64,000 nucleotides of DNA. Origin: Mesodorylaimus sp. YZB2_4 (Eukaryota; Nematoda; Enoplea; Dorylaimida; Dorylaimidae). The translations under genes were made by a program, and so were the position numbers. The stretch covers positions 62,001 to 126,000 of the forward strand of contig JASANH010001455.1 of NCBI GenBank assembly GCA_030248295.1, read 5' to 3'. Below, in pieces: positions 15,955-62,247 of this stretch. The notes beneath the pieces were generated by a model. It saw nothing but the letters and a program-made list of their open reading frames with translations, did no database searches and was not told where the DNA came from. The first letter of the stretch is position 1; every line of letters starts with the position of its first letter.

Positions 15955-15959
15955 TCAGG

Positions 15960-16064
15960 AGGCGAGCCAACCCAGCACGAACGGCCACCCCAACCCCCAA
16001 AACCACTCCACAACACACACCAACACCAACCCCCCAAACAAAAAAAACAACCCACCCACAAACA

Positions 16065-16097
<33 letters not shown>

Positions 16098-16238
16098 AAC
16101 CCCCAAAAAAAAAAAAAACAACAAAAAAAACCCCCCAAAAAAAAAAAAAAAAAAAAAAAAAAACCCCCCTTTAAACCAACACAACAACAAACAAAACACA
16201 CAACCCAACAACCCAAACAACAAAAAACAACCCCTCTT
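15960..16238. repeat. A/C-only low-complexity tract (probable assembly artefact)
   Basis: For about 275 bases the plus strand is nearly all A and C, with long A runs separated by C runs. Only a few G occur at its left edge and three T near 16170. The composition starts abruptly in the coding region of the Cys-rich gene and returns abruptly to normal at about 16236. On the complementary strand the tract is only G and T. Confidence 0.75.
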
Positions 16239-17254
16239 ATAAAAGTCTACTATAAAGAGGGACTACTTCCGAAAGCTTACCCTCCCCCCCCGCGTATCTC
16301 ACATTGTGCTCATTGTCACACAGGGCTTTCTGCAGAAGTAGTCCCACGGACTCTGAACGACTGCACCACACAGCAGATCCTGTAGACCCCCTCATACTCA
16401 TAGTTTACTCGTACCTAAACGCGAATGCGTATTTTTTAGGATCCGTTTTGAATGACCTGAGAAATCTGACCTCATTCTGGCATTAGCTTATGCAGCAAAG
16501 ACACAGTCATGCACGCGCTTCGGAGTGGGCACATTGCATTTCTGCATTGCCTGATCCCTCGCGCCCACTCCTCTACTGCGTACGAGTACAGTACATAGTG
16601 CGGGCTCTGTGATGTGTTATCTCGTCGACAGCCATTTTTTGCATGGTGTTCAAATTTCAGCTAGTCTTTACTCTGCATGTTCAGCGCACTTGAAGGCACT
16701 CTGCGCTGCTGCCTCCGAGCGTGAAAAGGACTAGTAAAACACTTTGTAAAAAAGTTTCTAGCCGGGTAGTTGAGCAGGGCGGTTTATGTAAGCTGAAGGA
16801 ATGGAGGCGAAGAGCCTTGTGCTACTGTTACTCAAGACCGCCCGCTTGGGTGTCGAAATGGGCTAGGAGTAGGACGTATGCATAACAAGCCTCAACAGTT
16901 GTTCACATGGCTTAGTCCCTAGCCTCTGCTTCCAACCTACATTGCCAGGTATCGAAGCTGCGTCAGAAGGAGGTCTGAGGGATTAAAATAGCGCCTGAAC
17001 GCAAGAACCTCCGACACACGTCGACGAGGAGGAGTATAGGCGAACTTGGCCTCGGTCTCACATATCGTTCTCTCTCGACGAGCTAGGCCAGACACCTCTC
17101 TAAGCACCTTGCTAATCCGTGGTCATATCATCACTGCTACAAATAAGTCTAGTCCCTGGATTTCTCTGACTTACCATCGCTTATAGAGGTAAGTCAGGTA
17201 TTTGCAGTGATACTTGTTTTCCAACAAGATTAGACTGTCTTGCAGACCGGCATC
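16239..17254. other. 5' flank of the Gln-rich gene
   Basis: No gene recognised. The sequence TGTCTTGCAG immediately before ACCGGCATCATG at 17241-17257 looks like a splice acceptor, so a non-coding first exon may lie in this stretch. Confidence 0.4.
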
Positions 17255-20633: not shown

Positions 20634-23358
20634 CTAGGTCGAATCAAAGCAGTGCGGTGCAGCCTCATCATCCTCCTGACTATGCAATCTCAAAATCTGC
20701 TGCGCCGGTCTCTCCTCCCGAGCATCTACATTTTCCAATGGTGGCACATTCCACAAATCCTCGCGTCCCCGACCACTCTCTTCCTCTTCCTCCTCATCGT
20801 CTTCGTGCGTGACTGCTCGAGCCAGCATGGCAGTCTCGTTCACAGCACCATAATTCCTGCCCGCCACTCGTCGTCTATGCAATTCGTGCATGTACAATGC
20901 ATGCATACTCATCTCGGCCGCCGTACTCTCAGCCAAGCCACTGAACACGGACGACGGCGTGGTCGGTTGGCCATTGTAATTCTGGGCAGCCGCAATGAAT
21001 CGACTCGACATCAACACGGACGACAAAGATGGCTGATGTTGTTGAGACAATCCAGCCGAATTCGAACTCGATCCAACCACGCCACTTCCCACTCCGATCG
21101 ATGCGTACAATGGTCCTTCCGACTTGCTCACTCCGCGTCCTTTCAATTCCGTTGCTCGCATTGGCATTGATGCGCCCGCGAACACGCTATGCACTCCGCC
21201 CAGTAGACCGAACGACGGCGGGACTCCCAATGAGCCCAGGCTTTGTAAAAGAGCATTATCAAATACGCCCGTCGCCTGATGCTCGCGTATGGTCTGCGCA
21301 TCTTTATGAATCTCCCGACGAAACGTGTGCAAGAACCGTTGAGCCAACCCAGTCCCGCCACGAGCCGGTTCCCATTCGGGATTCGTAATAGCGAAATGAA
21401 TTAAGGACATTTCCGTTTTCCCATAATCGGCTGCTACTCGAGCATCGTCCGGTTCCCTCGGGCCGCCCGAACTAGCCGCTTTCGGCGCCCCGCGAGCCTT
21501 CGTCGGTTGCCAATACGGATCGCCGTGTTTCTGCACATCCATTTGTGCAAACGAGCACACATCGCCCAAACCGGGTACTTCCACTGTAAATTTTCGAAAA
21601 AAATCAATAAATTCAGCCGAACGTGGTCGAAGCCAAAATAATAAAATAAATGGTGTCACAATCGGACTTAATAATTCTTCCACCAAAAATGTAGCTTTAT
21701 ATTGAAATAATTGACTGAATTCCGATCGAACTTGTTCCGTATGACCTTGACAACGCCAATGATCGGGCATATAATGCACTTGCGATAAAATACCGGACAT
21801 CATCATTTCCGGACACCACACTAGATTCTCGTCCGGAATGAAAACTTTGCATACGGCTATGACCAAACCTAAACCTGTGATGGCCGTCAAGACGTGTTCC
21901 ACCTGAAGAATAACATAAATTAGTGAACTACAATTTTTGAATCCGACTGACCCCACGTCCCCATAATTCCAAAGACCGACTCACTTGCAAGACATCTTCA
22001 TCGTAGACGCTCAAAATAACCAAAACGGCAAACAGAGCTCCGGCGAAAAAGGCTACATTTTTTGCCAAAACTTCTCCGATACTAGAAATGAACATGTCCA
22101 TATAATATTGGGCTGGTCGATAGGCTCGGCACAATCGTGCATCCAATTCGTGATCTAATTCGTTGAAATGACGAAAATAATATCTTCCATAAATTGACCA
22201 TCGTCGAGCGCCCAATGAACCCGGTTCACGTTTGATCAATTCGGCATAAAAGAAAAAACTATATAAAATTTGCCAAATAAAAATAATCGGCGATAAAATC
22301 AAATTAAAAATACCCAAATAAAGTAAAATGCGTCGTGTACGTTCAGTTAATTCTTGTCTTTTTTCTCGACGTTTATAATCAGCTTTTAAATGCCAATAAT
22401 TTTCCCACGCCGACCATGGACTGGCGAAAAAGAGTAATTCTAAATTTAATTTCAAAAAATTAGTAAAGAAAGTTAAACTGAAATGTTCGCCAATAAATGG
22501 GAGAGAAAATTTAGGTGGTAATAAACTTTTATTGACCATAGCGACTAAATAATTTTTTCTTCTTAAAATTCTTTGATAAATATCCAGTTCGGTCAATTCT
22601 CGTTTATGAATACATAATTGATGTTCGTGTTGGGCGTCGCGTAATCGTCGTTGAACTTCGTGCCAAGTTAAATTTTCTAATTCGGCATCGCGTATTTTTA
22701 ATACTTCTTCAAAAAATTGACGCATTTCCCAAGATTGAGTTGTTCGATAAACGACACGAACCAAACGATGAAACCAAAATGCCGCTGCTAATATTAGACA
22801 AATTATTAACCAACCGGGAAATCTTGAAGCGCAATCGGATCGAATAGCATCGGCTAGAGTTAATTTTCGAGGTGGTATTTGAGTAGGATCGAAATTTTTC
22901 GGGATAACTTCTTTGAATAAAATGCCATAATCGACGCATTCTAATAAAAACGAACTGAATGCCACCACGAAAACGAATTGAAATAATTCGAAACAATCCG
23001 ATAAAAGCATGCAAACGAAACCGTGTCGTTGATGATATTCATAAACCCGTGTGAAGAAATCGTCCAAATTATCAATATGTCTCCATCGACTAGCCGCAGC
23101 GATGGTCATCGATGAAGAGGATTGAGGATATTCATCAGTTTCTGCTGCTGATGTTCGTTTATTTTGATTCTTTTTTGTTCTTGAATTGTTCGATTCTGTT
23201 TCACCGATATTTACCAAAACATCGTCTGCATAAAATGTTGTTGGATGATGAGCTTCATTGGATTGTTGTCGAGTAATTAACGGCGATTGCGTAACTTCGG
23301 TCCGTTCCTCGTGGCCACCCGCAATTCCTGCGATCGGCTGATATCCAACACGAGGCAT
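20634..23358 (-). CDS. ATG9: Autophagy-related protein 9 (lipid scramblase)
   Basis: Two exons (minus): 21985-23358 and 20634-21902, with an 82 bp GT-AG intron in phase 0 (TTG CAA|GTGAGT...CAG|GTG GAA), 880 residues. ATG9 is the multispanning scramblase of vesicles that seed autophagosomes. Diagnostic core blocks are present: WRHIDNLDDFFTRVYEYHQRHG, RRKNYLVAMVNKSLLP, YGRYYFRHFNELDHEL, AKNVAFFAGALFAVL, YDEDVL, HYMPDHW, EFSQLFQYKATFLVEELLSP, FFRKFTVEVPGLGDVCSFAQ and LIHFAITNPEW. The start MPRVGYQPIAG is an in-frame ATG followed by a Ser/Thr-rich cytosolic tail. The C-terminal tail after about residue 650 is variable and ends with an acidic DDEEEEEES stretch. Length is near that of human ATG9A. 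The 5' end is divergent from PACS. Confidence 0.97.
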
Positions 23359-25298
23359 AGTCGAAAAAAGGAGTTTCCAACCTAGAAATTAGGTAGATAT
23401 TGTCAAAACAAAACAATATTCAGTCGGATACACTCAAAGGATCACGCGGATGCCATTTTGGCAAAAGATGCAAGTCTACTAGAACCAGAAGATTATTGTT
23501 ATATTGTTGCAAAACGGTCAGTTATTTCTCGCCCATTTATAAAACTATATGATGTATTATCAAGCATAAATTTTGTAAATGTTGAAAAAAATGATAAATT
23601 AATGTAATGATTTATTTTTTCAGCTATAGCTAATGACTTTGTTTCATAACAACGCAGAAGTTTCTTGATTTTAGTAGGTGAGAAATACATTAATTTTTTC
23701 CACAGCTGACTGGGTAAAATTGAGGTACAGATTTAACAGCCTGAGTCAGCTGATTTCTAAAGCAGGACAAAGTCTTTTTTGGTAGTTTCTGAAATTAATA
23801 TGGATAAACCATTTGCATTAAATCAATTAGGATTATCTCATTCGCTCATTTATTGTGCCGTATGCTCTGTTCCATATGTCACCCATTGTGTTGTGCCATA
23901 TGCGCACATCAGGGCATGACGTGCATGAGTACAATCTGTCGCAAGCTTGACTCACAGCCCGTAACTGATGGTCTTCCTTCCCATGCTCCAGCAGGCCCGC
24001 AGCGGATGGTCCCCTGTTTTGACAACACAAAACCTGTGCGTTGAGCGGGAGTCGAACCCGGCCCAATACTTGCAATCATCATGTTCATGTTTTACCACAT
24101 CACCAAACGCTTTAACGCACTCGAGGGTGAAGGGACACATTTTACAGGAAATGATTTACCGGCCCGCGAGTCGAACACTCGCTCGTAACTGCGCACCTGG
24201 CGTGAGAGGCAGACGCCTAATCCACCAGGCCACGAGACCGTTGCAATGATGCTCCATGTTTCCATCCCTCGCCAAGGATCACCCTTATGTAGATCCGTTG
24301 CAGTACCCCCCCCCCCCCCGGGTTACACGCCTGAACTGATTACGGTTCGGGTGCAGGCGTACTGGATGGATGCAGGGTGGGGTGGGTGGTGGGGGGGTGG
24401 TCTTGATTGACCATAAGGAGCTGGCTGGGTGCCGCACTGGTCGTGCATGCAATCACCGTCGGCCAATATTGGTGATCATTTCGCAGACAAAGCTCATTCG
24501 GGTGTTGGCGGTGGGTCTTAGTTCATAGGATCTCGTTTCCTGCGCTCGGTCGTGTTGACACTGGGGCACTTCTTTGAGCCTGGACGGGAGGGCATTGAAT
24601 GGGCAATATCGCGCTTCACTGGCTCGTATCGTGAGGCTTGTATTGAAAAGTAGGGCTTTCTATGTGGCCCATAAAAACTAGCTTGTATGCCTTTGCGCGG
24701 GGACTGGGGCTCGTAGCGAGTCGTCTCCTCCTCGTCCTCCCTACATGCTTTCATTGAAACAGAGGCGGGCGGAGGAACGTGATGCCAAGCTTTGAGAGGC
24801 TCTAGCTTTGTCGATTGATTGGCTCTGAAACGGCATCCGTTCGTTTTCCGCACCGGACCAGAACAAATTCGACGAGCAGCCGAGCGGATGACGCTGATTG
24901 TCATTGTTGCTTGAACACTCAGCCAACTTTGGTGTCTGTCCCTCATTCATCATCGTCACTCGTCGCCAGCCCCACTAAACGTCATTACCCTGGAATTCTT
25001 AGCTCTCGAGAAGGCCAATTTGCTTACAGAAACGAGCTACCGTGTCATCGAAGAGGGCCCATAGAATCGTGTTTCTTTACGGCCTCGACATTCTTCGGTG
25101 CCAGCAAAAGCATGCTATGCGTTTCCTCTTTCTAGAACCTGTCCAAAGCGAGCTCATTAGCCAGTAGCCCTACTTCGTGCAGTGCGAACGATTCGAAAAA
25201 ATTGGCGGGAAAAGGAAGGTGAGAGGAATAGAGTAGAGGAAGTCGATGATTTCCGGTCACTTGATAACATCCGCCCATGTTTGGCAGGTTCGTTAGCC
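23359..25298. other. Divergent intergenic region ATG9/PACS
   Basis: Holds the promoters of both genes, a reverse-strand tRNA-like SINE (about 24078-24240) and a C run of about 13 at 24307. The minus ORF 24518-24946 has no recognisable domain. No other gene supported. Confidence 0.45.
24078..24240 (-). repeat. tRNA-derived SINE, family A
   Basis: Reverse-strand copy of an approximately 160 bp element. In sense orientation it reads GGCCTGGTGG(A)TTAGGCGTCTGCCTCTCACG (A-box and anticodon-like region with CTC), then a B-box-like GAGTGTTCGACTCG. The tail contains ATCATTTC.TGTAAAATGTG, CCTCGAGTGCG and a GTTTGGTGATGTGGTAAAACATGAACATG end. The same layout occurs at 57828-57990 and, more diverged, at 35895-36070. 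Confidence 0.75.
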
Positions 25299-31200: not shown

Positions 31201-33825
31201 AAGGGCCATTATGGCACTCTGCATGGTTTCTGTCGAGTGCTCCTGGCCCAGGCCTTCAGGGATCCCCTTTCTGGGGCGTTTTGTGTCCACCTAAACCTGA
31301 TATGAGACTGATTAGTGGCAGGCAAGGTGCTTTTACTGTATTCTACCAGTAGAACCGCATGTGGGTCCGAGCTAGTCTCACAGTCAGCGCTAAACCTAAT
31401 GTAAGACTGACCAGTGGCACTCTAGATGCTCTTATTCTGCCAGTAGTCACTGCGCATGTGCGTCCGAGCCAGTCTCTCAGCCAACACTGTCAGCTTCGGT
31501 ATCCTGCAAGGTCTCTAATCTCCTCCTTTGCAGGACTGGTGACGAGATGACGCATATCTTCGTCCCATTTGTAGTCGAATTGAGGAGAGCTGCTGGTGAC
31601 GGTACAGGTACCAGTCTGCTGACATGGCAGTCCTTTTTGGCTTATCCAATCGCCATGTGTTTCCAGGTGCCGACGATTCGTTGCCTCAAAGTCCGTTATC
31701 AGGAATTCAGTCTGCTGGCCCTGTACCAACGTCGAGTTGCAGTAGCCCTCCAAGCAGTGCTGGCACCGTGTCTAGCCCTCGTGGCGTGCCAATTGGGAAT
31801 GATGTGTTTTCTGGGGCCATTCATTGCTCGCCACCAAGTTCACCTCATTTCCTGGACCGCACTGGCGGATCCGTGATTAGGTAAGATTATTTCAGTGATG
31901 TGAATGCGGATCTGATGGCTGGTCTGTTGCAGTGCTGTTGAGGCGCAAGATCTGCAGATTGAATATTGGACGCCTGCTGGAGTCTCTCCGCCGTCGCAGC
32001 CAGCGCTCGCAGGTGAGACCCGCCTTGGTCTATTTTTTGGGTCCTTCGACCCAATTAGGTACTAGAACAAAAAATTAGTTATTACACGATGCATGGGCAA
32101 ATCTAACAGCTTTTGACAAGACAGGACGCACAGCACAGGCCAAGTTGTTAACAGGGATCAACTGATTGTGAGAGCCTTGTGGTGGCTGCCGGGACTAATC
32201 ATGCGGGTCTGAATTTCAGACTGTTCATTTTATCCAAGAGGTGCTTCCAGTTTGTACAGTCTTTGATTTCCATTGTTTGCTCGCATTCCAAAGAAATGCA
32301 CTTACCTGCGCGGAGATTGTAATCTATTTTTGATCTCTGTGTCATATCCCTTGATTGTTCTACTATGTATTAGCTATGCACATCACGATCGCGAAGCTAC
32401 TTTCCGCAAAGCAAATGCTTACGTTTAGGGGCGCTGCAAAAGAAGGATTCTTCGTCGATCTCTGCAACATCTCCGCCTGGCGTTGCGGCTGGTTCTGGAA
32501 CTCCGCCGACTCTAGCCTCTACGAATGCTCCAATCAAATATTCCTTGAAAACCGCATTCAAATCGTTGCTGATCACGCGCTACCCGTCCGCATTCTCTTC
32601 GCTCGTGGGAGAATCGCCTCTACCACCGCCTTTGCTGATGGTGCAGTTTGTGAAAGAAAAGAAGAAAGACAAAAGTGAGTGCTTTACCTGCCCCTACTCG
32701 TGGAGGCCGAACTGGTCAGGACTGGTCGTACTTGCTTGTCCTTTCTTTCTAGTGTTACAAAAACTCGGAATGAAGAACAAGGAGAAGATAGAAAGCGAGC
32801 AGAAATGCCAATCGATCGAGGGCATTAATCGATTGATCTGTAGTGCCAAGCAGCATGCGACTATGAAGTGTAAGTCCAGTACTTCTACATAGTGTGCTCG
32901 ATTCATGAGCTGGCTAGCCCTACATTGCGAAAGATAACGCAGGCCTTCCAGTCGGGGGAGGGGAGTCAGAGACTCGACGGGTTTCTGCCTCGGATCTGGA
33001 GGTCTTATCGAGCGGCCAACGAAGGTCACTGATGTGCTGTATGCGGCTGCTGTACCATGCTCTGTATAAGGCCAAATACAGCGCACTGCTCACCCCATGA
33101 CCCAAGCATACTAAATACTGTAGGTAGGCCTTGCTACTAACAATAAGGGGCCGAATTTCAGCTTTCAATTTGTGGTACCGCATCGCTCTCTGCTTTGCTT
33201 GCACCGACTGTGAGATGACGAAGGCACAAACTTTATCCCGCCCTCTAATTTCCAATTCAAATTGTCTTGTCACCTTTGTTGATCTCCTGCTTGGCCAAGA
33301 ATAAGAAGTCATAAAAACTAGCCTTGAGCGGGAATCGAACCCGCCTCGCTCTGTGCGTGTAGCTTTCCTTTGTCAACCCTGCGTAGGTCGTTTATCAGAG
33401 GGATTGAAAAATCGGATTTACGATTAGTTCATGTTCATGTTTTACCACATCACCAAACGCTTACGCGCACTCAAGGGTGAAGAAACACATTTTATACGAA
33501 ATGATTCACCGGCCCGCGAGTACATCGCAAGCATTCCTGAAGGTGTGGATTTTGCGTCACTGATATGCATCTAACGATTTTTCTAATCTATACCTGAGTG
33601 GAGGCCACAGACTGGAGGTGCCAGGTTCATGTCCATATTTTACCCCGCCACCAAACGCAGATATACCCACTCGAGGGAGAGAACAGTCAACATTCTAAAA
33701 TTAGCTTTCTTTCAGTGAGCATCGACGGTGTGGAGTGGACCAACGTGAAATTTTTTCAAGTCTCGTCTCAGTGGCAGACTCTGGTCAAGTTCATCCCCTT
33801 AGCTTTATTCCATACTGATCCTTGA
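25299..33825 (+). CDS. PACS: Phosphofurin acidic cluster sorting protein (PACS), 16 exons
   Basis: Cytosolic adaptor that sorts furin and other acidic-cluster cargo in the TGN/endosome system. Phase-consistent exons: 25299-25405, 25457-25544, 28008-28100, 28807-29125, 29247-29500, 29729-29935, 29988-30238, 30291-30713, 30774-31042, 31096-31198, 31534-31607, 31667-31880, 31933-32012, 32429-32674, 32753-32869, 33716-33825; 984 residues (human PACS1 is 963). The furin-binding region is residues about 16-190: LFATWE, CVPR, VIAVKLQ, KRTLRSNDI, then YPHF and MLQRRKKYKG. An acidic segment (FTDEEDDD, about 206) corresponds to the regulatory acidic cluster; KQKFVAILKKFKI and STPKPSLRPYF follow. The C-terminal half has SRIQKYCN, KLVVMGGDRFFAY, VAGRVAKYL, LQIEYW, SIEGINRLICSAKQ and SIDGVEWTNVKFFQ. 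The start is uncertain: ATG 25299 or 25326, or an upstream exon. Introns hold SINEs and a tandem duplication. Confidence 0.95.
28157..28490 (+). repeat. tRNA-derived SINE, family B (PACS intron 3)
   Basis: Plus-strand copy: GCGGCCGCATTGGTGCAGCG, a B-box GGGTTCGATTCCC, then GTGACTGCCC..AGGTGCTTCC and the tail GGGACGCTGCTGTGTGTTC. It is collinear with the reverse copy at 1453-1790. It lies in sense orientation in the intron just after PACS exon 3. Confidence 0.75.
31283..31490 (+). repeat. Tandem duplication in PACS intron 10
   Basis: Two diverged copies of an approximately 100 bp unit lie head to tail. Both contain CTAAACCT.ATG(T)A.GACTGA, AGTGGCA, TCT(A/G)CCAGTAG and GTCCGAGC.AGTCTC. Spacing of equivalent blocks is about 100 bases. 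Confidence 0.65.
33420..33700 (-). repeat. Two 3'-truncated family A SINE tails
   Basis: At 33428-33520 the reverse-strand tail TGTTCATGTTTTACCACATC ... CTCAAGGGTGAAG ... GAAATGATTCACCGGCCCGCGAG is present, but the tRNA head is cut off. A second, more diverged tail (CCAAACGC, CTCGAGGGAGAG) follows at about 33628-33695. Both lie in the last PACS intron. Confidence 0.6.
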
Positions 33826-45163: not shown

Positions 45164-47348
45164 CTGCAAAGAGAATTATGCTAGCACCATTCGTCTGGAG
45201 TTCTTGGTACCAAAAATCCAGTCATCTAATGGTTTATCGGCTGCTAAAGTCATGCCAGAGTTTGACAATGTACAGCTCAGACCTGCAGCCACGTGATTTC
45301 CTAGGTTGCAGTAATCCTGCGACATCGATCGATATTTTGCAGGTTATTTGATTTCTGCGATCCGATTACAGTAATCCTATGCCAAGGATCTATTGCTTTC
45401 AAGCTGCCGATACAGTAATCCTTTGACATTATATCAGCTGTCCGTGGAGGACGTGAGTGGTCGAAAGGGAGAGTGCGTTTTTGATAAGGTCCCTAATCAA
45501 ATATGCGAGCCAATAATAATCATCGCGTAGGTTGTGTAAATTTGCATGGACCCGTTTCTAATCCACCCGGGTTTTCTTTACACTTGAAAACAAAGAAAAA
45601 AAGAAACCTTGCCGCGCTAGGTCTGTGCTTTATTCTTGTTGAAAGGGGCGTTTTATTACAGCTCTCCTATCAGCCACCCAGGGGCCTCTTGTTGTCCGTA
45701 TCAGCGCTGCTGGCTGGAAATTTGTGTTCAACTAGAACCCTGGGAAGGGAGCCTAATACGTCGCGGCACGGATTAGCGTCTTACTGTCTGTCACGCGAGT
45801 ATGAGCAAAGTGGCGAACGTGCTACGAGCTTATTGACGCTAGGCAAGACACAAGTGCCGCAAAGCCGACTCGTTTGGTCGGAGCTCAGAAAATTACCAAT
45901 TCCCTATCCTCCTCGTTTCTATTCGAACCCCTCTACTACATATTGATCGCTCCTTCGCCTCGCCCCTCATGCGCATCCCGACCGAGCCGTGGTGCAGGTC
46001 TAAGCTAACTCCTTCGGACAAGCTCGCGCCAGTATCGAAACTACGAGCACGCTTCATTGCCGACCGGAAACTTGCACTGTGATCAGCAGGGTCTCTATTT
46101 TCTAGGAGGTAGGCAATAAATACGGCCCCTACAATTAATCCAAACAGCCCCATCCGAGTGCCCCCCCCCCAGAATGCCCAGCTCAGCTACGATCCCTCCA
46201 ATTTTCAAGCACTATACGAGTCTCCCAGATGTTCTTCGCATAAAGCAACAGTGCGAGAATGATAAAATTTAGGGAACTTCTGCTGCACGTGCACATAACC
46301 TACCTTGGCATGCACCAAATGATTAGGATGAGGAGGGCGGTCGTCTTGGCCACTACCACCAAAAGCAGTATTACGCAATCGAGGAAATGCCATCACGCGA
46401 GCATGAGCCGATTCAAAGCATCAAATAAGCCACGTATATCAAGCAGGACTCGAGCCTAGAAGAATAGTTCCTTCTTTTATGGAAAGTAATGCCTATGAAT
46501 AAAGCTAAGGCGTTGAGGCGACAGCTGCCGCCCGAACCACCATTCCCTCTTATCCCGCCAAGTCACAAAGAGAATGTGGGCTGGGCGAATAGGTCTGAGG
46601 GTAAAGAAAAAACGAAATTTCATATGGGCGGAAAAATATTAATTTTCTCGTCTGGGCACACTTGTTTGCACCCTTACTATTATGCTATCGACTGGCTACT
46701 ACTCTCCGACGCGTACACTAGTCCGACTCGGCCCAGCAGTAAGACTGATTTGCATTGGATGCTACGGGTCTCGAAACGATTCTGTCTTGCTCCACTTCCA
46801 AGCTAGAGCTAACGAAGAAGCTGCGATCGATGTCCCCCCCCCCCCCCCGCTCAGACTGCCTACGAGGTGACCTAACAGAAACGACGAGTGACAAGTTCAG
46901 GCGAAGCGCTTTCAAACGATAGCAAAGCTTATTTGGGGGGAAAAAGAAACGTTTCTTTGACATTTCTTACAGTTGACACGAGCTCTTTAAAAAGTGTTTT
47001 TTTTCGATGGCAAAGGCCAACATCGATTCGCCCACATTAGACCTGTCCAAGTCACTCAGTCACAAATAATTACAGCTCGTCACGAAACATTTAGAATTTC
47101 GAAAACCAAAATGTTTATTTTCTTGATGTTTACGCAAAAAACCAATCACGAATTGCTGCAGTTAAAATTTAAAATTCGCGCTATTTTGTTGTACAGTGAT
47201 CAAACAAGCAATATTGCGCAGTTGTTGCTGTTGTCCCGCCCAGCCCAGACGAATCGTGGTTTCGTGCGAAAGTTTGTTTTCGAAACGAAACTTGCGTGTA
47301 AACTAGTGAATTAGTGGGAAAAAGAAGGATTTGCAATTACAAAAAGAC
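45164..47348. other. Divergent intergenic region RGS/DGAT1
   Basis: Contains three spaced copies of CAGTAATCCT (about 45311, 45370, 45411) and a run of about 14 C at 46835. An 86-codon minus ORF at 45893-46153 begins with a hydrophobic segment (MGLFGLIVGAVFIAYLL) but has no supporting context. The left end should contain the missing RGS 5' exon and the right end the DGAT1 promoter. Confidence 0.4.
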
Positions 47349-49262
47349 ATGTCTTCGTCGAAATCTGATCAAGTTCGTCAACGAGGCGGTGGTAGCAAAG
47401 CGAATGGGGCTGCATCGTCGGCCACGCCAACCTCATTGAAACCACCTCAATCTCCTTCGGCTGGAAAGCGATCAAACTCAAATGCAGCTGATCACAATCA
47501 AATTTTGATGGAAAATTTAAGTCCCGATAATCCGATCCATATATCCCAAGATTCATTATTAAGCGCATCGTCCGGGTACACAAATTATCGAGGTTTCTTC
47601 AATTTAGCTATAATTCTCTTGGTATTATCGAATGCTCGTGTTGCATTGGAGAATTTGATCAAATACGGGATTCTGATCGATTTCGGATATTGGTTTCAAT
47701 ATATGATTACGGATGCTCATAAATCGCCGGTGGGTATCTTATTGGCTTTGGTGAATGTTTTCATTTTGACGGCATTTGGAATCGAGAAAGCGTTATACCA
47801 TGGTCGAATCAGTACTCATCGTCGCGGGGCTTTGTATCATGGTATTAACCTGACGGCTGTATTGACCGTCCCCGTATTGGTCATATTATTGAAAGAACCG
47901 AATCCGCTCGGTGGTGCTTTTTGTTTGACTTTATATACGATTACATTTCTGAAACTAATTTCCTATGCTCACGTGAATTATTGGTGTCGAGCGGCTCGTG
48001 ATAAACGAGCCCGTCGTGGTCGGAATGTGGTAGAAGAAGATAAGAAACCGGTTTCGGCGCCATCCTCAGCCATAAGAGATAATATCCGATTTATGTCACG
48101 ACCGCGAAGTTTTTCGTCGGGATTCAATTCATTGATTTATCCCGACAATTTGACCGTGTCTAATTTATATTATTTCATGTTGTCACCTACGCTTTGCTAC
48201 GAATTGAATTTCCCGCGATCGCCGAAAGTACGCAAATGGTTCGTGGCTAAACGAATGATTGAAAGTTTCTTCTTGATGCAGGTAAGAGACTAAAGGCCTG
48301 ATTTGAAATTCTTGTCTACCGTAGCTGAGTACAAACATGAAATGCATTCCAGTATATGTCGCGTGCGAAACATGCGAACTCGGGTGATCTCTGCAAAATA
48401 TGTAGGAGTAAGTTTACATTTACTGATAAGCCAATAAACAACTGCCTTGTCTCATCTGGGCCACCTTTGACTTTTCCCTGCTAAATATTTACAAACAGAA
48501 AAGTAAGGCGTGTGGCTATTGCAATGTCCTAGAAACGCCCAAGGCTAACATTTTCGTTTGTTTCGCATGTTTTGGATGAGCTAGGTTTTGCATAAACAAG
48601 AATAGGCCTGCGTCAAAACCGGATTTTGCTGTTTTCTGAAAGATGCCACCTTTTTGTTGCAGGTAATCATCGCCCTGTGTCAACAATGGATCGTACCCTT
48701 GTTAAGAAATTCATTGGAACCGTTTATTGCCATGAATTATTCGCGTATGTTGGAACGTTTATTAAAATTGGCCATCCCGAATCACGTAATTTGGTTAATA
48801 TTCTTTTATTGGCAATTTCATTCGTTAATGAATTTGGTGGCCGAACTGTTACGTTTTGCTGATCGAGAATTTTATCGTGATTGGTGGAATTCGGAGACGA
48901 TCGATTATTTTTGGCGTAATTGGAATATTCCGGTTCATCGTTGGTGCGTTCGTCATTTATATAAACCTTTAGTGAATTCGGGTTATGGACGTATGACGGC
49001 ATCGACTGCTGTCTTTTTCGTATCGGCTTTTTTCCACGAGTATTTGATTAGCGTGCCGTTGCACTTGTTCCGTTTGTGGGCATTCACGGGGATGTTCGCT
49101 CAAGTGCCCCTGAATATGATTACGTCGCGGTGGGCCAATGGAAGGCTTGGCAACGTGGTCGTCTGGTTGTCGTTGATCGTAGGTCAACCATTGTGTATTC
49201 TGATGTATGTCCATGACTGGTATGTGACACACCATATGCCTATGACCGAGCGGGTCCAGTGA
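47349..49262 (+). CDS. DGAT1: Diacylglycerol O-acyltransferase 1 (MBOAT)
   Basis: ER enzyme that makes triacylglycerol from diacylglycerol and acyl-CoA. Two exons: 47349-48281 and 48663-49262, phase 0 (ATG CAG|GTAAGA...TTGCAG|GTA ATC), 510 residues (human 488). The start is the ATG of MSSSKSDQ; the upstream in-frame codon run has no ATG. A disordered N-terminus (about 1-75) precedes multiple membrane spans. Family motifs: [61 protein letters not shown] and the acyl-CoA/DAG motif FYRDWWN (about 381-387). The catalytic His is in [12 protein letters not shown] (His about 436). NMITSRW follows and the C-terminus ends after [11 protein letters not shown]. Nothing suggests inactivation. Confidence 0.97.
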
Positions 49263-53625: not shown

Positions 53626-54188
53626 CGAAATACCAATACTTTTTCGCGCTTGTATTTTGGTTGAGAATTCAGAATACATACAAGAAATTTGCCGTCTAGT
53701 CAGTCATGAGAAACGATTGTAGGTGCTGTATTAATATGCAACTGTCCGAAAATTCTACAAAAACGTCAAATACAAGATGAGGGCCATTTAGAGCGCTTGA
53801 AGTTTCAAATTGATAATCTTTCAGAAGCCACAAACATAATGAATAAAGAGAAGAGTCAATAGCACGTACGTTAAAACATATGCTAACAGGAGGAGAAGCT
53901 GGGAAACCAAGTGGGCGGGGCGCGGCAGAAGCCAGACCCGACGTTTAAAAGTTTCTCACCAAATCTTTTTCTCTCAGTTTGATTGATTCACGAGTTTCAT
54001 GCTTTTTTCCTCGCCTCTGTTTGTTCAATGTACGTATAACAACAGTGAGCAGTGCCTTTAAAGTGAGATATAACGTGCTTGGCCACCGAAATGAAGCAAT
54101 AGCGAGAAAAGAAGCAAACAAAGCTCGATTGGTTCCTGAGACACACACTGAAAAAAGCTTTGCACAGCTGGGACGGATGACGATTGGC

Positions 54189-54262
54189 TGATGGCACCTG
54201 TGAAACGGATCAGAGAATGTCAAGAATGTAAGCGGGCTGGCAGAATTGCTATCTCAAGTTTG
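54189..54262 (+). pseudogene. Orphan duplicate of the exon-2 start of the polycysteine gene
   Basis: GGCTGATGGCACCTGTGAAA and the following 50 bases (ATCAGAGAATGTCAAGAATG..., CTATCTCAAG) closely repeat 55233-55305, the acceptor and beginning of exon 2. The copy lies upstream of exon 1 and is not followed by the Gly/Cys repeats. It is a relic of an internal duplication. The right arm has the matching relic at about 61700-61775. Confidence 0.7.
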
Positions 54263-54881
54263 TGTGTGTGGCGTCCCATGGAAGATGCTAACCTGCTATA
54301 ATCAACTAACGCTAGCGAAAAGTCGCCATAGTATCAGTACAGCTCATCAGGCATATGCTTTGAAGTGCGGTCGAAACGTCACACTTGCATGCCTGAATGT
54401 AGTTTTGCGATTACTTGTAACTGCACAGATTGTTTGCGCCACAAATTCCTTAGCTCTCATGCAAATTGTACATTGGCTGTCATATCTAATGGAATCACTC
54501 TGACACACTAACTATAACGTTACAATTCGTTCGGGTCGTCTCATTTTTGTGGAAGCATTTCAGAATCCTGAACGAGGATGAAGCGGCTGAATCATGGCCA
54601 AGCATAAAAACAAGGATTATGGACAGCCGGCCCGCTGATTTCTGACGATTGTTTGTACAAGGTTGCATCGTGATTTCATTAATTGCATTGCACCAGCTTG
54701 TTTATCCCAGATTTTGGCACTATTTACTCAAATTGCCAGCACGCTGTCTACAAGCGCAGGCAAGCACAAGGCTGCCTCGTATCATAACGTATCCATGCCT
54801 GGTAATATTTCGTATATTCAATCAGAAAAAAGATTGTTTGGAAATCTTGTGTAGTGAGCTGGCAGCGTGTTCTCAGACCGG

Positions 54882-54890
54882 TATATAAAT
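54882..54890 (+). promoter_or_regulatory. TATA box of left polycysteine gene
   Basis: TATATAAAT lies 69 bases before the start codon at 54959, with no other ATG between. An identical sequence lies at the equivalent place in the right copy. Confidence 0.6.
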
Positions 54891-54958
54891 CGGGTTTTTG
54901 GCAGAGGTTTTCATCATTCAATTCCTTTTTGCCTTTCAAGCTTTTTCGAATCAGAGCG

Positions 54959-56092
54959 ATGGCACGTACGACACCGATTATGACTAGAATTTCAGCCATT
55001 CTTATGGCCCTCGCCTTGTATACCGACGCGTTTATTTTGCCTGATCCGGGCACAACGATCGGCATCACCAGAACGTACACGGCTCCCAGTAAGTACTGAT
55101 TCGGTCTGCCGAGTGCCATGAGGGCCTTGTCTGAAGATACGTGTGGTCCTTGTGCCTAGTATGAACTTGCGTGAGACAGGAAAGTGTCGTCCTGTAAGTT
55201 TCTATGAGGCCGATTTAAAGGCGCTTAGTCCATGGCTGATGGCACCTGTGAAACAGATCAGAGTATGTCAAGAATGCAATCAGGCTGGCACAATTGTTAT
55301 CTCAAGTCCATCATTTTAGCCACAGATCAACCTCCTCCTGGGACTGAGCCTGCAACTACGACTGAGTCGAGTGAGACGCTAACAACGTTCATTCCACCGA
55401 TATTCAGAGCTAAAGAGCAAAAACGATCTTGCGGTGGAGGTGGCGGTGGAGGTGGCGGATGCGGCGGCGGTGGCGGCGGATGCCACAGAGCTGCCCGCGA
55501 TGCCGAGTATTCTCGCAATGCTCGCTGTGGCGGCGGTGGCGGCGGATGCCATAGAGCTGCCCGCGATGCCGAGTATTCTCGCAATGCTCGCTGTGGCGGC
55601 GGTGGCGGCGGATGCCATAGAGCTGCCCGCGATGCCGAGTATTCTCGCAATGCTCGCTGTGGCGGCGGTGGCGGTGGATGCCACAGAGCTGCTCGCGATG
55701 CCGAGTATTCTCGCAATGCTCGCTGCAGCGGAGGTGGATGGGGAAAACGTGACGAGTCCAGGCAAGGAAGGTGCAGTGGGGGTGGAGACTGGGGCAAGCG
55801 AGACGATCTCACCAGAGGTCAACGGTGTGCGGGTGGCAATTGGGGCAAGAGGGAAGATCTAGCCAGAAACCAGCGCTGCATGGGAGGAGGAGGAGGAGGT
55901 AGCTGGGGAAAGCGTGAAGATTTATCCAGAAATGTACGCTGCGGTGGAGGTGATGGCGGCTGCAGTCATCGTGCGACCAGGTCTGACGATCATAAGCCAG
56001 AGGATGCTAAAAAGATGGAAGCAATAGGCAAGTTGATCAAAACTCTAACAAAACGTGGTTGCTGCTGTTGCAAGTGCTGCTGTTGCTGCTGC

Positions 56093-56139
<47 letters not shown>

Positions 56140-56305
56140 CTGTTGTTGCTGCTGCTGTTGCTGTTGCTGCAAGTGCTGCTGCTGCGGCCGCAAGCGCAGA
56201 CGCGACAGCTTTGGACCGGGTCACGATTTCCGCCGCCATTACGCCGTTTTCATTGAAAAACGCAACCGATGGGAGCGCATGGAGAAACGTATGTGCAACC
56301 AATAA
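54959..56305 (+). CDS. Secreted Gly/Cys-rich repeat protein with polycysteine tract, left copy
   Basis: Exons 54959-55088 and 55257-56305 join in phase 1 (CCC A|GTAAGT...AAACAG|AT CAG), 392 residues. Exon 1 is a signal peptide (MARTTPIMTRISAILMALAL, cleavage likely near YTDA/FILP). Exon 2 encodes a Thr/Pro linker, Gly runs, and four copies of CHRAARDAEYSRNARC separated by Gly runs. Then come four WGKR units of the form (G/N/S)WGKR(E/D)(D/E)..R..RC. After a Lys-rich bridge follows a tract of 4 Cys, Lys, 32 Cys, Lys, 4 Cys, and a basic C-terminus (GRKRRR ... ending MCNQ). The stop overlaps AATAAA (56301-56306). Cys codons mix TGC and TGT. Family not recognised. Options: disulfide-crosslinked structural or adhesive protein, metal binder, or peptide precursor (W-G-K-R would give Trp-amide peptides). 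A translation beginning at the ATG at 55232 would lack the signal peptide. Confidence 0.85.
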
Positions 56306-56306
56306 A
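56301..56306 (+). terminator. Polyadenylation signal overlapping the stop codon
   Basis: AATAAA shares bases with the terminal Gln codon and the TAA stop of the left polycysteine gene. The right copy has the same overlap at 59736-59741 on the minus strand. If used, the 3' UTR is only some tens of bases. Confidence 0.55.
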
Positions 56307-56425
56307 TCAAGAGCAGTTATGATATAACATTCCTAGTTCTTGTCTCTTTGTGATGACTTTGCGCCATTTATGCCTTCGATGTCAATTGTACATGCTGTAA
56401 GCACATCATTCATGTTCTGCCATGC

Positions 56426-59400
56426 CTAATAGTATTTAAACCTGGGCACCAGAATCCAAGAATGGAATGAACCCTGATTCTTGAACTCTATAAGTGCAAT
56501 CAAAACTGGAGCAGCCGAACAAACCCAGACCAAATCGAACCTGACGGAACTGAATAAGAAGCAGGGATTTATAGCTGAACCAGACACGACTGACCGAACC
56601 AGGACTGATCGGACCAGTTCGCGTGACTAGTGTAATAGGCATGTACTATGTCCTCTGGCCCATGAGTGCACTGGTTCAGGGAACCAGTCCGCCTCTCCTA
56701 AGTCAGGGCCAGCATGAGACCGAGACCGGGAGCAAGGTCGAGGTCGAGTGACTGGTCTTATTGCAGGCATCGGTAGAGGACTAGTCTAGAGTTCCTGGTC
56801 TGAACTTGCTCTGTGAGCACTTTGGGCTCAGGTCCGTCAGAACTTCTTCGACGGCCGGCACGTGCGTCTGCCCCCCCCCCCCCCCGATTTGTGAGTCTAC
56901 ACGGACTGCGTGGTACTGTTCCTGTGGCTTGAGCCATCCTCTGGTCAGCCCTAGTTTGCCCTAGGACGAGCCAAGGATTTCACTAGTATCTTTTCACACT
57001 GATTGACAGCGCAAAAATAGAAAAATTAGCAATCAAAGAAGCTTCTTGTAAAAGGACTTTAATAAACTCGGAATTCTCTTTGGTGTCTCTTAATCTTTAC
57101 TGAAAGGGACCATCCACCTGAGCTCTGGCAAAAACTTGTCTGTTGCAGCGTGACCAGCAGCAGCCAGGCAGGCCGTGGCTAGTGGGAGAGAGTAAATGAT
57201 ACTCTCCCCTGGATGGGAGACGTCAACCCCGCGGGTTGATGTTTTAGCCGTAGGTATAATTGCAAGACTTGCCTACTCCAGTGGGAGTCTGTCCTGTGCC
57301 GACTTCGGTTAGCCTCACTATCGCCTACGCCTGCCTGGCAGGGTTGCAGCAGCAAGAAAACTGTCGCTTATTCCTATCTTGGGTCGGCCCTGGGCTGGTC
57401 CTTGTTCAGCCGGTTTGGTCCTGTTCAGTCCTGGTTCAGTAAAAATAGCCACCTGGTCTGGTTCGGGTCCTGCTTCGGCTGCAAAAGCCAGTTTGGTCGA
57501 ACCTGGGCGCCGCCAACGAGTGGCCAGGACTCAGGAGCGACCAATAATTTCTTTTATCGTTTTTCACTTAAAAAGGCTACCTCCTTGAGCTACCTAATGA
57601 GTTGGAATTTGCATTTACACATTTGCATGTACATACATTCTTTCTTTTTGGCGCGGAAGAAATGCCTCGAGAAAAGCCCATTGGTGTCTGGGCTTCTCAT
57701 CGCCCTACCTCAAAAAGAGCTGTCCACCCTACATGCTGACGATCAGTAAAAAATTTCTCCCAACAACATTTTGTGCAAAGGTTAAATAAGCATGAAGGCT
57801 TGCTAGTGTGAAGAAGTCACTAGTTACCGGCCTCGTGGCCTGGTGGGTTAAGCGTCTGCCTCTCACGCCAGGTGCGCAATCACGGGCGAGTGTTCGACTC
57901 GCGGGCCAGTAGATCATTTCGTGTAAAACCTGTCCCTCCACCCTCGAGAGCGCATAAGCGTTTGGTGATGTGGTAAATCATGAACATGAACTAGATGGTT
58001 CTCGCCAATCACACTTTTTAGGGTGGGATCGTGCAAAGACCATGAGGCCACTTGAAGTCATATGTAAATGGCAGGATAGAGCAGGCGTACTTGGACTGGT
58101 TCGGGCATCATATGTGGATTTTGAGCCAGGGAAAGTGTTGAGGACTGGTTTCTGTGAGCAGGCCTCTATGTTTCTGCTGGATTTTCTTGGTAGGGCTTAG
58201 GTTTTTTAGATGTTTTACATGGTTTCTGACGTGTATATTGTGATGTAAACGCATTGGTAGTTTGCATACTTGCCAAGTCATAATCTCACGCCACGCTTAC
58301 GCACCGCTTATGATTAGGCTACCGCAAAGGTTACTTCTACGAGACTGTTACCAGCTTCTAGCACTAGCGCAGCGCACCTACGGCTCACTTGCTCTGCTTG
58401 TTACAGACTAGTAAAGTAGTTTTCTCTACTCGGGTCTTTAACATAACATATATATATTGGGCACCTCTCACGAGTTATGGCATTGTTGTATCGCAATGTC
58501 GCTGGAGTTGAGTCGACAATAAACGTTCATCATCTTCGTACGGCGCGATTTCCACGACTGCGAGGGCTGGGTCGTTTCCATACGTACGCTGGTCGGTCGT
58601 TCGGTGAGCGTGCTGAGTTTTGATGTAGTGAGCTTAGACATTTCTTCAGTCCCCAGATAACTTCATTACACGAGCTCATTTTGCCGCTGGTCTGTGATTG
58701 CAATATCGGTGATATTTTAGTCGACATGGGTAGAGATGCGAACATCGGTAAAAACAATGTATAGGCGCTAATTAAGGCAGACGTAGAAGTGCTTGCTAAT
58801 TTTGATTCAGGCGCATGGATGCCAGCCTGAAGGCAAGCAATGTTGTGCCATTAGAACGAATACAGAAGAATGTAAGCCACAAAGGCTGGGTTACCGAAAC
58901 CCGACTTTGTCCTTTGCTCTGCCAACTAGCAGCGCCTGATATCGAAATTGCTATGGGGAGAAAAGCTTTGATTGAATTCCTTTCCGTGTTTCCATCGCAT
59001 AATTGAGTAACACCTTAAGACTTTGTGGAGATACAGATTGGCATGAGCATCCACAAGGTCAACTCTAAACCTGAAACCAGACCATTATCCTTGCAAATCA
59101 GTTGCAGTTGCAGTAACGCACTGCTCCAGCCTATGAGACAAGATTCCATGACCACTAGTCTCACACCTGATAGCCCCTACAAACGAAATCGGCTAAGTTA
59201 GTCAATACTTGATCGACCACTAGCCATCAATCTAGCAACAGTAGCACAGGACTGTGCCTTTTGAGATATATTGCTTTTGTGTCTAAAATTGCGCAGTGAA
59301 TAAAACAAAAATTCGGGCCGTAGAGAGCCGTTTTTCAGGCCATTTGCGCTTACTCAAAATTACTGCTTTGGATAACTCCCTCAACAATTGACTTATCAAA

Positions 59401-59616: not shown

Positions 59617-59736
59617 GCATGGCAGAACATGAATGATGTGCTTACAGCATGTACAATTGACATCGAAGGCATAAATGGCGCAAAGTCATCACAAAGAGAC
59701 AAGAACTAGGATTGTTGTATCATAACTGCTCTTGAT

Positions 59737-59902
59737 TTATTGGTTGCACATACGTTTCTCCATGCGCTCCCATCGGTTGCGTTTTTCAATGAAAACGGCG
59801 TAATGGCGGCGGAAATCGTGACCCGGTCCAAAGCTGTCGCGTCTGCGCTTGCGGCCGCAGCAGCAGCACTTGCAGCAACAGCAACAGCAGCAACAACAAC
59901 AG

Positions 59903-59949
<47 letters not shown>

Positions 59950-61002
59950 GCAGCAGCAACAGCAGCACTTGCAACAGCAGCAACCACGTTTTGTTAGAGT
60001 TTTGATCAACTTGCCTATTGCTTCCATCTTTTTGGCATCCTCTGGCTTATGATCGTCAGACCTGGTCGCACGATGACTGCAGCCGCCATCGCCTCCACCG
60101 CAGCGTACATTTCTGGATAAATCTTCACGCTTTCCCCAGCTACCTCCTCCTCCTCCTCCCATGCAGCGCTGGTTTCTGGCTAGATCTTCCCTCTTGCCCC
60201 AATTGCCACCCGCACACCGTTGACCTCTGGTGAGATCGTCTCGCTTGCCCCAGTCTCCACCCCCACTGCACCTTCCTTGCCTGGACTCGTCACGTTTTCC
60301 CCATCCACCTCCGCTGCAGCGAGCATTGCGAGAATACTCGGCATCGCGAGCAGCTCTGTGGCATCCACCGCCACCGCCGCCACAGCGAGCATTGCGAGAA
60401 TACTCGGCATCGCGGGCGGCTCTGTGGCATCCACCGCCACATCCGCCACAGCGAGCATTGCGAGAATACTCGGCATCGCGGGCGGCTCTGTGGCATCCAC
60501 CGCCACATCCGCCACCTCCACCGCCACCGCAAGATCGTTTTTGCTCTTTAGCTCTGAATATCGGTGGAATGAACGTTGTTGGTGTCTCACTCGACTCAGT
60601 CGTAGTTGCAGGCTCAGTCCCAGGAGGAGGTTGATCTGTGGCTAAAATGATGGACTTGAGATAACAATTGTGCCAGCCTGATTGCATTCTTGACATACTC
60701 TGATCTGTTTCACAGGTGCCATCAGCCATGGACTAAGCGCCTTTAAATCGGCCTCATAGAAACTTACAGGACAACACTTTCCTGTCTCACGCAAGTTCAT
60801 ACGGGGCACTAGGACCACACGTATCTTCAGACAAGGCCCTCATGGCACTCGGCAGACCAAATCAGTACTTACTGGGAGCCGTGTACGTTCTGGTGATGCC
60901 GATCGTTGTGCCCGGATCAGGCAAAATAAACGCGTCGGTATACAAGGCGAGGGCCATAAGAATGGCTGAAATTCTAGTCATAATCGGTGTCGTACGTGCC
61001 AT
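59737..61002 (-). CDS. Secreted Gly/Cys-rich repeat protein with polycysteine tract, right copy
   Basis: Exons (minus) 60873-61002 and 59737-60704, same phase-1 junction as the left copy, 365 residues. The signal peptide exon is identical in translation (MARTTPIMTRISAILMALAL). It has three, not four, CHRAARDAEYSRNARC units and shorter Gly runs, with GGCGGGC replacing an all-Gly spacer. The four WGKR units, the 4+32+4 Cys tract with its two Lys, and the C-terminal GRKRRR...MCNQ block are retained. No stop or frameshift separates the copies, so both look functional. The gene points toward the left copy (convergent). TATA (61071-61079) and AATAAA (59736-59741) are preserved. An acceptor and donor identical to the left copy support the same splicing. 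Confidence 0.85.
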
Positions 61003-61070
61003 CGCTCTGATTCGAAAAAGCTTGAAAGGCAAAAAGGAATTGAATGATGAAAACCTCTGCCAAAAACCCG

Positions 61071-61079
61071 ATTTATATA
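61071..61079 (-). promoter_or_regulatory. TATA box of right polycysteine gene
   Basis: TATATAAAT on the minus strand, 69 bases before the start codon at 61002, at the same position as in the left copy. Confidence 0.6.
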
Positions 61080-61699
61080 CCGGTCTGAGAACACACTGCC
61101 AGCTCACTACGCAAGATTTCCAAACAATCTTTTTTCTGATAAAATATACGAAATATTACCAGGCATGGATACGTTATGATACGAGGCAGCCTCGTGCTTG
61201 CCTGCGCTTGTAGACAGCGTGGTGGCAATTTGAGTAAATAGTGCCAAAATCTGGGATAAACAAGCTGGTGCAATGCAATTAATGAAGTCACGATGCAACC
61301 TTGTACAAACAATCGTCAGAAATCAGCGGGCCGGCTGTCCATAATCCTTGTTTTTATGCTTGGCCATGATTCAGCCGCTTCATCCTCGTTCAGGATTCTG
61401 AAATGCTTCCACAAAAATGAGACGACCCGAACGAATTGTAACGTTATAGTTAGTGTGTCAGAGTGATTCCATTAGATATGACAGCCAATGTACAATTTGC
61501 ATGAGAGCTAAGGACTTTGTGGCGCAAACAATCTGTGCAGTTACAAGTAATCGCAAAACTACATTCAGGCATGCAAGTGTGACGCTTCGACCACACTTCA
61601 GAGCATATGCCTGATGAGCTGTACTGATACTATGGCGACTTTGCGCTAGCGTTAGTTGATTATAGCAGGTTAGCATCTCCCATGGGATGCCACACACAC

Positions 61700-61775
61700 A
61701 GACTTGAGATAGCAATTGTGCCAGCCCGCTTACATTCTTGACATTCTCTGATCCGTTTCACAGGTGCCATCAGCC
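61700..61775 (-). pseudogene. Orphan exon-2 fragment, right arm
   Basis: Mirror image of the relic at 54189-54262: CTTGAGATAGCAATTGTGCC through GACATTCTCTGATCCGTTTC on the plus strand. It shows the internal duplication was already present before the whole unit was inverted and duplicated. Confidence 0.65.
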
Positions 61776-62247
61776 AATCTTCATCCGTCCCAGCTGTGCA
61801 AAGCTTTTTTCAGTGTGTGTCTCAGGAACCAATCGAGCTTTCTTTGCTTCTTTTTTCGCTATTGCTTTATTTCGGTGGCCAAGCACGTTATATCTCACTT
61901 TAAAGGCACTGCTCACTGTTGTTATACGTACATTGAACAAACAGAGGCGAGGAAAAAAGCATGAAACTCGTGAATTAATCAAACTGAGAGAAAAAGATTT
62001 GGTGAGAAACTTTTAAACGTCGGGTCTGGCTTCTGCCGCGCCCCGCCCACTTGGTTTCCCAGCTTCTCCTCCTGTTAGCATATGTTTTAACGTACGTGCT
62101 ATTGACGCTTCTCTTCATTCATTATGTTTGAGGCTTCTGAAAGATTATCAATTTGAAACTTCAAGCGCTCTAAATGGCCCTCATCTTGTATTTGACGTTT
62201 TTGTAGAATTTTCGGACAGTTGCATATCAATACAGCACCTACAAATG

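Follow-up and report, generated by a model that had tools for sequence, protein, structure and literature searches.

A family of predicted secreted peptide precursors with polycysteine tracts in the nematode Mesodorylaimus sp. YZB2_4

We analyzed a window of 64,000 nucleotides from Mesodorylaimus sp. YZB2_4 (contig JASANH010001455.1, labeled C46, positions 62,001 to 126,000 of the forward strand). A two-exon gene, copy A, occupies positions 54959 to 56305 of the plus strand of the window, running from an ATG at 54959 to a stop codon that ends at 56305. A TATA box, TATATAAA, lies at 54882 to 54889 (+), 77 nt upstream of the ATG. Exon 1 (54959 to 55088, +) encodes a hydrophobic N terminus, MARTTPIMTRISAILMALALYTDAF, that is signal peptide-like as judged by hydropathy only, and it ends in phase 1. 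The phase-1 intron (GTAAGT...TTTTAG; 55089 to 55319, +) is followed by exon 2 (55320 to 56305, +), which carries Gly/Cys repeats, four W-G-KR peptides, a polycysteine tract, and the stop codon.

The preliminary description of this gene had joined 55088 to 55257. Its donor (55088/55089) was upheld; for the start of exon 2, an acceptor at 55319 now appears more likely. Phase-1 acceptor candidates were present at 55256, 55283, 55319, and 55325, and the choice among them was made by hand. We prefer 55319 (cattttag/CC), which has a T-rich end, as probably the true site over 55256 (tgaaacag/AT). Both are in frame and in phase 1, so the two models differ by 21 residues ahead of TDQPPP and have the same tract. 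With acceptor 55319, the precursor is 371 residues long. A 75-nt stretch of the intron, 55233 to 55307, matches 54184 to 54258, 1 kb upstream, with 91% identity. Judged from this match, the pair is an old internal duplication, and it carries acceptor 55256.

The tract region of copy A reads KR-G-C4-K-C32-K-C4-G-RKRRR in one frame and is preceded by TKR and followed by a charged tail; apart from the acceptor, the tract and the two-exon gene around it (54959 to 56305, +) stand as first described. The predicted released peptide, G-C4-K-C32-K-C4-G, together with its C-terminal basic site, RKRRR, spans 56057 to 56203 (+), and the tract itself spans 56060 to 56185. On the plus strand, the successive elements are Gly (56057 to 56059), C4 (56060 to 56071), Lys (56072 to 56074), C32 (56075 to 56170), Lys (56171 to 56173), C4 (56174 to 56185), and Gly (56186 to 56188). 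Farther upstream, a Gly/Cys peptide span, placed approximately at 55431 to 55962 (+) by the cleavage listing, contains four C-G6-C-H repeats, CSGGGWGKR, CSGGGDWGKR, CAGGNWGKR, CMGGGGGGSWGKR, and CGGGDGGCSH, with charged, Cys-free spacers between them. A single-sequence fold model of the exon 2 protein had a mean pLDDT of 43.5 and no confident fold, as expected of a precursor. Across both strands of the 64 kb, only two TGY runs of at least 8 codons were found, one in copy A and the other in a second copy, B (59872 to 59967, minus strand).

Copies A and B belong to an inverted duplication with arms at 53717 to 56425 (+) and 59617 to 62244 (−) (93% with gaps). Copy B has its exon 1 at 60873 to 61002 (−), with the ATG at 61002, and its exon 2 at 59737 to 60641 (−), with a C4-K-C32-K-C4 tract whose C32 run lies at 59872 to 59967 and a stop codon ending at 59737. 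A third copy, C, lies on the same contig about 12 kb further on, at about 135.1 to 136.4 kb of C46. The tract is 4/32/4 in copies A and B and 4/31/4 in copy C. Between copies A and B, exon 1, the tract, and the tail together show 1 difference in 375 sites, compared with 32 in 1,593 sites of noncoding parts. In the repeats of exon 2, however, 12 of 660 sites differ, no fewer than in the noncoding parts, which counts against the explanation favored below. Two pairs of related genes on other contigs, one on C109 and one on C174, likewise lie on opposite strands.

The window holds several other features. A SEFIR domain protein of the interleukin-17 receptor type (E = 1e-19) is encoded at 7968 to 9017 (−), and the autophagy gene ATG9 lies at 20634 to 23388 (−) in at least two pieces. 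Open frames at 47310 to 49262 (+) presumably resemble DGAT1-like membrane-bound O-acyltransferases, the first piece being without a Pfam match. A 1,002-residue open frame at 17234 to 20242 (+) has a very high content of Gln, Pro, and His and no Pfam match, and the low-complexity stretch at 15876 to 16385 (+), with long Lys/Thr/Asn/Pro runs, is probably no gene. Copies of a dispersed repeat, 87 to 90% identical, lie at 24079 to 24240, 33425 to 33521, and 57828 to 57993.

We searched the window's own genome (145 Mb, 1,067 contigs) with the copies and their paralogues and found a polycysteine family of at least 28 loci across 16 contigs, these counts being lower bounds. In its protein families, the genome looks like that of a nematode, with 27 matches to PF01060 and 133 to PF01484, two families typical of nematodes that had no match in 14 control genomes. 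Searches for SL1 RNA and for pectate lyase drew a blank both here and in their controls and do not bear on the species. Small local clusters of young duplicates lie on C247 (five loci), C46 (three), and C2 (three); C41, C49, C109, and C174 have two loci each, and C157, C40, C196, C58, C59, C53, C118, C9, and C164 have one. The 25 members outside C46 carry the labels L010/L015, L016 to L036, L078, L079, L081, and L083. Weak matches on C466, C397, C773, C503, C111, C124, and C60 (E values of 0.0004 to 0.4, 28 to 51% identity, several interrupted by stops) were left out of the member count. An assembly artifact was ruled out because divergent members sit on 16 contigs. Among 600 pattern matches in viral contigs, none was confirmed as a relative. 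In a tree of the members, one starred clade takes four of the five loci with an uninterrupted cysteine tract; the fifth (C53) and the rows for C46, C118, C9, and C164 have long branches or no placement. The C46 copies, whose branch is very long, are linked to the other members by a short low-complexity match and a common layout, which counts against the explanation favored below.

At 24 loci (the polyC loci), the tract is cysteine interrupted at most by lysines, with a longest run of 11 to 41 residues. Eight loci share a 5/24/5 tract, in which lysines split the cysteine runs, and the other lysine-split tracts are 5/26/5, 6/25/5, 5/22/5, 5/17/5/5, 5/18/5, 6/11/5, 5/27 (two), 4/32/4 (two), and 4/31/4. 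The 5/17/5/5 tract, at L028 (C41:528407), owes its form to a third lysine, a pattern that duplication of the terminal C5-K unit might produce. Five tracts are unbroken (C26, three of C36, and C41), with C26 at one locus of the C174 pair and C41 at the other. The C164 member has the tract (CCDCCK)14-CCDCC, and one C2 member has two tracts of the CCSCC/CCCCS type that include G, S, and H. In the other two C2 members, the tract is largely (GC)n, with A, Y, and E also present in one of them. All 29 tracts at the 28 loci have KR before them and G-KR, G-RR, or G-RKR after them; 28 were scored by script, and the 29th (L083), which the script missed because of an Ala at the second residue, was read by eye. 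A Cys density of at least half of the residues is kept across the family, while tract length (24 to 89 residues) and the spacer (none, K, D/K, G, or S/H/G) vary. In the patterned members (CCDCCK, CCSCC, and GC), Cys is conserved and the other residues are swapped.

In 23 of the 24 polyC loci, a hydrophobic leader exon, called by hydropathy, and a phase-1 intron give an unbroken precursor, the splice sites of the family models having been picked by hand among candidates. The introns of these 23 loci measure 50 to 88 nt in 18 cases and 218 to 257 nt in 5. The exception, L026 (C49:426673), carries a TGA in frame ahead of its intact tract; it is perhaps a young pseudogene and counts against the explanation favored below. 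The C164 member has a hydrophobic leader with an ATG and is open without an intron, and the three C2 loci have candidate leaders only, again by hydropathy. A TATAWA motif lies 69 to 109 nt upstream of the ATG at 27 of the 28 loci, being absent at C9; its background in the window is 25 of 666 bins of 96 nt.

TGY repeats can be read as pure Cys, pure Leu (YTG), or pure Gln (reverse CAR), depending on the frame, so the tract alone is uninformative as to which frame codes. For the same reason, the irregular use of TGC and TGT, put forward earlier as evidence for cysteine, is insufficient alone. On our reading of the sequences, the flanks and the paralogues settle Cys as the coding frame. For 26 loci (all but the two (GC)n loci), we took the stretch between the first KR site and the stop codon and counted the stops in each of the five non-Cys frames. 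The poly-Leu frame had 133 stops and was open at none of the 26, the poly-Gln reverse frame had 74 and was open at 3, and two further frames had 65 and 40 and were each open at 3. The reverse Ala/Thr frame, with 23 stops, was open at 14 of the 26 loci, which counts against the Cys frame. The absence of stops in the Cys frame is by construction, the stretch having been taken from the Cys-frame open reading frame (and starting past the TGA at C49:426673), so our argument relies on the stops in the remaining frames and on substitution patterns. Outside the tract, the Nei-Gojobori dN/dS in the Cys frame had a median of 0.18 and a range of 0.05 to 0.36 (152 of 153 pairs among 18 main-clade members). 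Shifting the forward frame gave medians of 1.40 and 1.62, and the reverse frames gave 1.39, 0.275 (poly-Gln), and 1.82, the poly-Gln value being low because that frame shares its degenerate position with the Cys frame. Within the eight 5/24/5 tracts, 0, 0, and 19 of 36 columns were variable at codon positions 1, 2, and 3, respectively. By these patterns, the Cys frame is the coding frame and is under purifying selection, and we regard it as nearly certain that this is a real Cys-frame gene family. The earlier proposal of a secreted-type precursor with cysteine as the selected residue is supported, the choice of cysteine by the broken frames, the dN/dS of 0.18, the flanks, and the paralogues. 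It also withstands two of the contrary possibilities raised with it, since the opposite poly-Gln frame is interrupted as described above and the tract stays in frame in every member found.

Basic sites divide the second exons of the family into Gly/Cys-rich peptides and charged spacers that lack Cys (for example, RELQLVGRADSADFEPSTDKR in the main clade). In silico cleavage at basic pairs and between R and C gave, for copy A, C-G6-C-H pieces, CSGGGW-G-KR, CSGGGDW-G-KR, CAGGNW-G-KR, CMGGGGGGSW-G-KR, CGGGDGGC-SH, and the polyC peptide and, for the C157 member, CSCGGG..., CGGGGGW-G-KR, CMNGRSAEKR, and CGGGDMGGHGGMGGGC-KR. Most of the Gly-rich pieces have a Cys at the start, and some also have one at the end. 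A polyC tract was present in every member found, and W-G-KR peptides were absent from many. The KR and G-basic flanks may mark a peptide that is cleaved at dibasic sites and possibly amidated; they are a signature only, in which the Gly may be a spacer. The position of 29 of 29 tracts between KR and G-basic favors the processed peptide precursor, one of several roles suggested in the preliminary description, and we consider it quite likely that the genes of this family encode such precursors.

We propose that, once the leader is removed, prohormone convertase-like enzymes would cut at the basic pairs and a carboxypeptidase would trim the basic residues, after which the exposed Gly might be amidated. 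The products would be a polythiol peptide (e.g., G-C4-K-C32-K-C4) and short Gly-rich peptides that start, or both start and end, with Cys, such as C-G6-C-H or, in the C157 member, CGGGDMGGHGGMGGGC. In the mechanism that we consider likeliest, the polythiol would form a disulfide hub with many arms, which the Cys-tipped Gly-rich peptides would connect as flexible linkers. A single precursor would then supply both hub and linkers of an oxidatively cured extracellular material, which might be a cuticle layer, a gland secretion, an adhesive, or an eggshell.

As a whole, the explanation that we think best, a secreted prepropeptide family yielding a thiol polymer and Cys-bearing Gly-rich peptides for an extracellular material, has about an even chance of being right. 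A disulfide network material as the main function, suggested by composition alone, falls just short of that. More tentatively, the family may amount to a novel class of thiol polymer made on the ribosome, in which animal genes for discrete secreted cysteine homopolymers (and their CCDCCK, GC, and CCSCC versions) and for their linkers are each a self-contained kit for such a material. A run of up to 41 Cys residues in an oxidizing endoplasmic reticulum is hard to imagine without special handling, which counts against these proposals. According to the portions of PMC5613652 available, synthetic poly-L-cysteine of 6 to 11 residues cross-links lysozyme via thiol/disulfide exchange, a point in favor of the proposed hub; the same source says that the polymer has low solubility in water, which also counts against them. 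By sequence, cross-linking, metal binding, and signaling are indistinguishable.

A secreted metal or redox buffer, in which the polythiol binds soft metal ions (zinc, copper, or cadmium) or scavenges extracellular oxidants as a gene-encoded counterpart of phytochelatin or metallothionein, seems to us unlikely. Thiol density is what the family conserves, as such a buffer would lead one to expect, and His is present in both (GC)n members and in each tract of the C2:864 kb member. Multicopy amplification is common among metal-binding genes and counts in favor of a buffer, but metallothionein clusters need Cys spacing, and pure C26 to C41 runs are without it. Moreover, no metallothionein or other Pfam family reached the cutoff in the six members scanned, and the Cys-tipped Gly-rich and W-G-KR peptides would be superfluous. 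Tight binding of Zn(II) by phytochelatins, described in the available part of PMC11191002, is in keeping with a metal-binding role.

We rate as improbable that the genes are nlp-29-like neuropeptide or antimicrobial precursors, with active Gly-rich and W-amide peptides and the polycysteine as a partner or anchor. The predicted leader, the basic sites, the G preceding basic pairs, and the W-G-KR peptides would all suit such precursors, as would the small clusters of young duplicates on C247, C46, and C2; the nlp-29 antimicrobial genes of Caenorhabditis elegans form a 12-kb cluster grown by duplication, in the available text of PMC2453101. However, the family bears no sequence resemblance to a curated family, and since the polyC tract occurs in every member and W-G-KR is missing from many, the tract is the common product. 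The same text describes adaptive evolution in some branches of the nlp-29 cluster, against a dN/dS of 0.05 to 0.36 over 152 pairs here.

That a CAG/CTG-type microsatellite was read by chance as Cys, or that the true gene is poly-Gln on the opposite strand, would account for the pure Gln and Leu reading of TGY in two other frames and for the length differences between near copies (4/32/4 versus 4/31/4 and C26 versus C41), but we dismiss it as extremely improbable, because the frames and substitution pattern argue otherwise, the KR-G...G-KR frame is identical at the 24 polyC loci, the TATA box and leader exon lie on the Cys strand, and the CCDCCK, GC, and CCSCC members make origin from one TGY microsatellite impossible.

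The preferred reading, a secreted precursor of thiol polymers and linkers, concerns a residue that, in the available text of PMC5125637, is among those least tolerated as proteome repeats. Here, nonetheless, at least 28 gene copies carry cysteine amplified as a homopolymer, with purifying selection acting on them. If produced, the peptides would raise the questions of how 26 to 41 adjacent thiols cross an oxidizing secretory route and which function a natural polythiol has once outside the cell, and they would be a gene-encoded counterpart of the polymers that chemists use for cross-linking and metal capture.

No Pfam or NCBIfam family scored over the cutoff in the six members scanned. The only matches, all below the cutoff, were to GRP (E = 0.96), YxzE (E = 0.016), and IgA-binding BAC (E = 0.0016, to the CCDCCK repeat); the Pfam metallothionein model gave no match at E values up to 1 in the same six members, and the C157 protein matched no solved structure at E values up to 10. 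Membership in Ts-PCHTP, metallothioneins, NLPs, or any Pfam/NCBIfam family is unsupported. In the open-access literature, we noticed no natural cysteine homopolymer peptide among the matches listed.

NLP-type precursors resemble the family in having a leader (a predicted one in the family), peptides divided by KR-type sites, charged spacers, a Gly that precedes the basic pair, and clustered duplicates; they differ in that the polycysteine family has a homopolymer of cysteine, or a dense pattern of it, as its common product, with no curated match. The products of the nlp-29 cluster are Gly rich, and to our knowledge, in a comparison made by description without alignment, they include no Cys polymer, whereas polycysteine is found in every member of the present family. 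Like the family, the nlp-29 cluster comprises small nematode genes in young local clusters, as far as the available text goes (PMC2453101). Ts-PCHTP, also from a nematode, is secreted type, is named as poly-cysteine, and has two Cys-rich domains, according to the available part of PMC2954182. That source gives it 36 Cys over 424 residues, a spaced motif, a His tail, and six exons, with the consensus Cx11Cx15CG...CKCCC...GC and CKCCC as the longest run printed; the portions available describe no homopolymer and no dibasic-flanked peptide. Compared by eye with the motif printed there, the family tract has contiguous Cys, no spaced motif, and no His tail. Phytochelatins and metallothioneins resemble the family in their very high thiol density. 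Metallothioneins are cytosolic with spaced Cys, unlike the secreted-type polycysteine family. Phytochelatins, the poly-Cys peptides of plants, algae, and some fungi and worms, are enzyme made from glutathione, in the available text of PMC11191002, whereas the polycysteine family is gene encoded and secreted type. Synthetic poly-L-cysteine is the same polymer but, in the part of PMC5613652 available, man-made and 6 to 11 residues long. The layout of the precursor is classical; its product is not.
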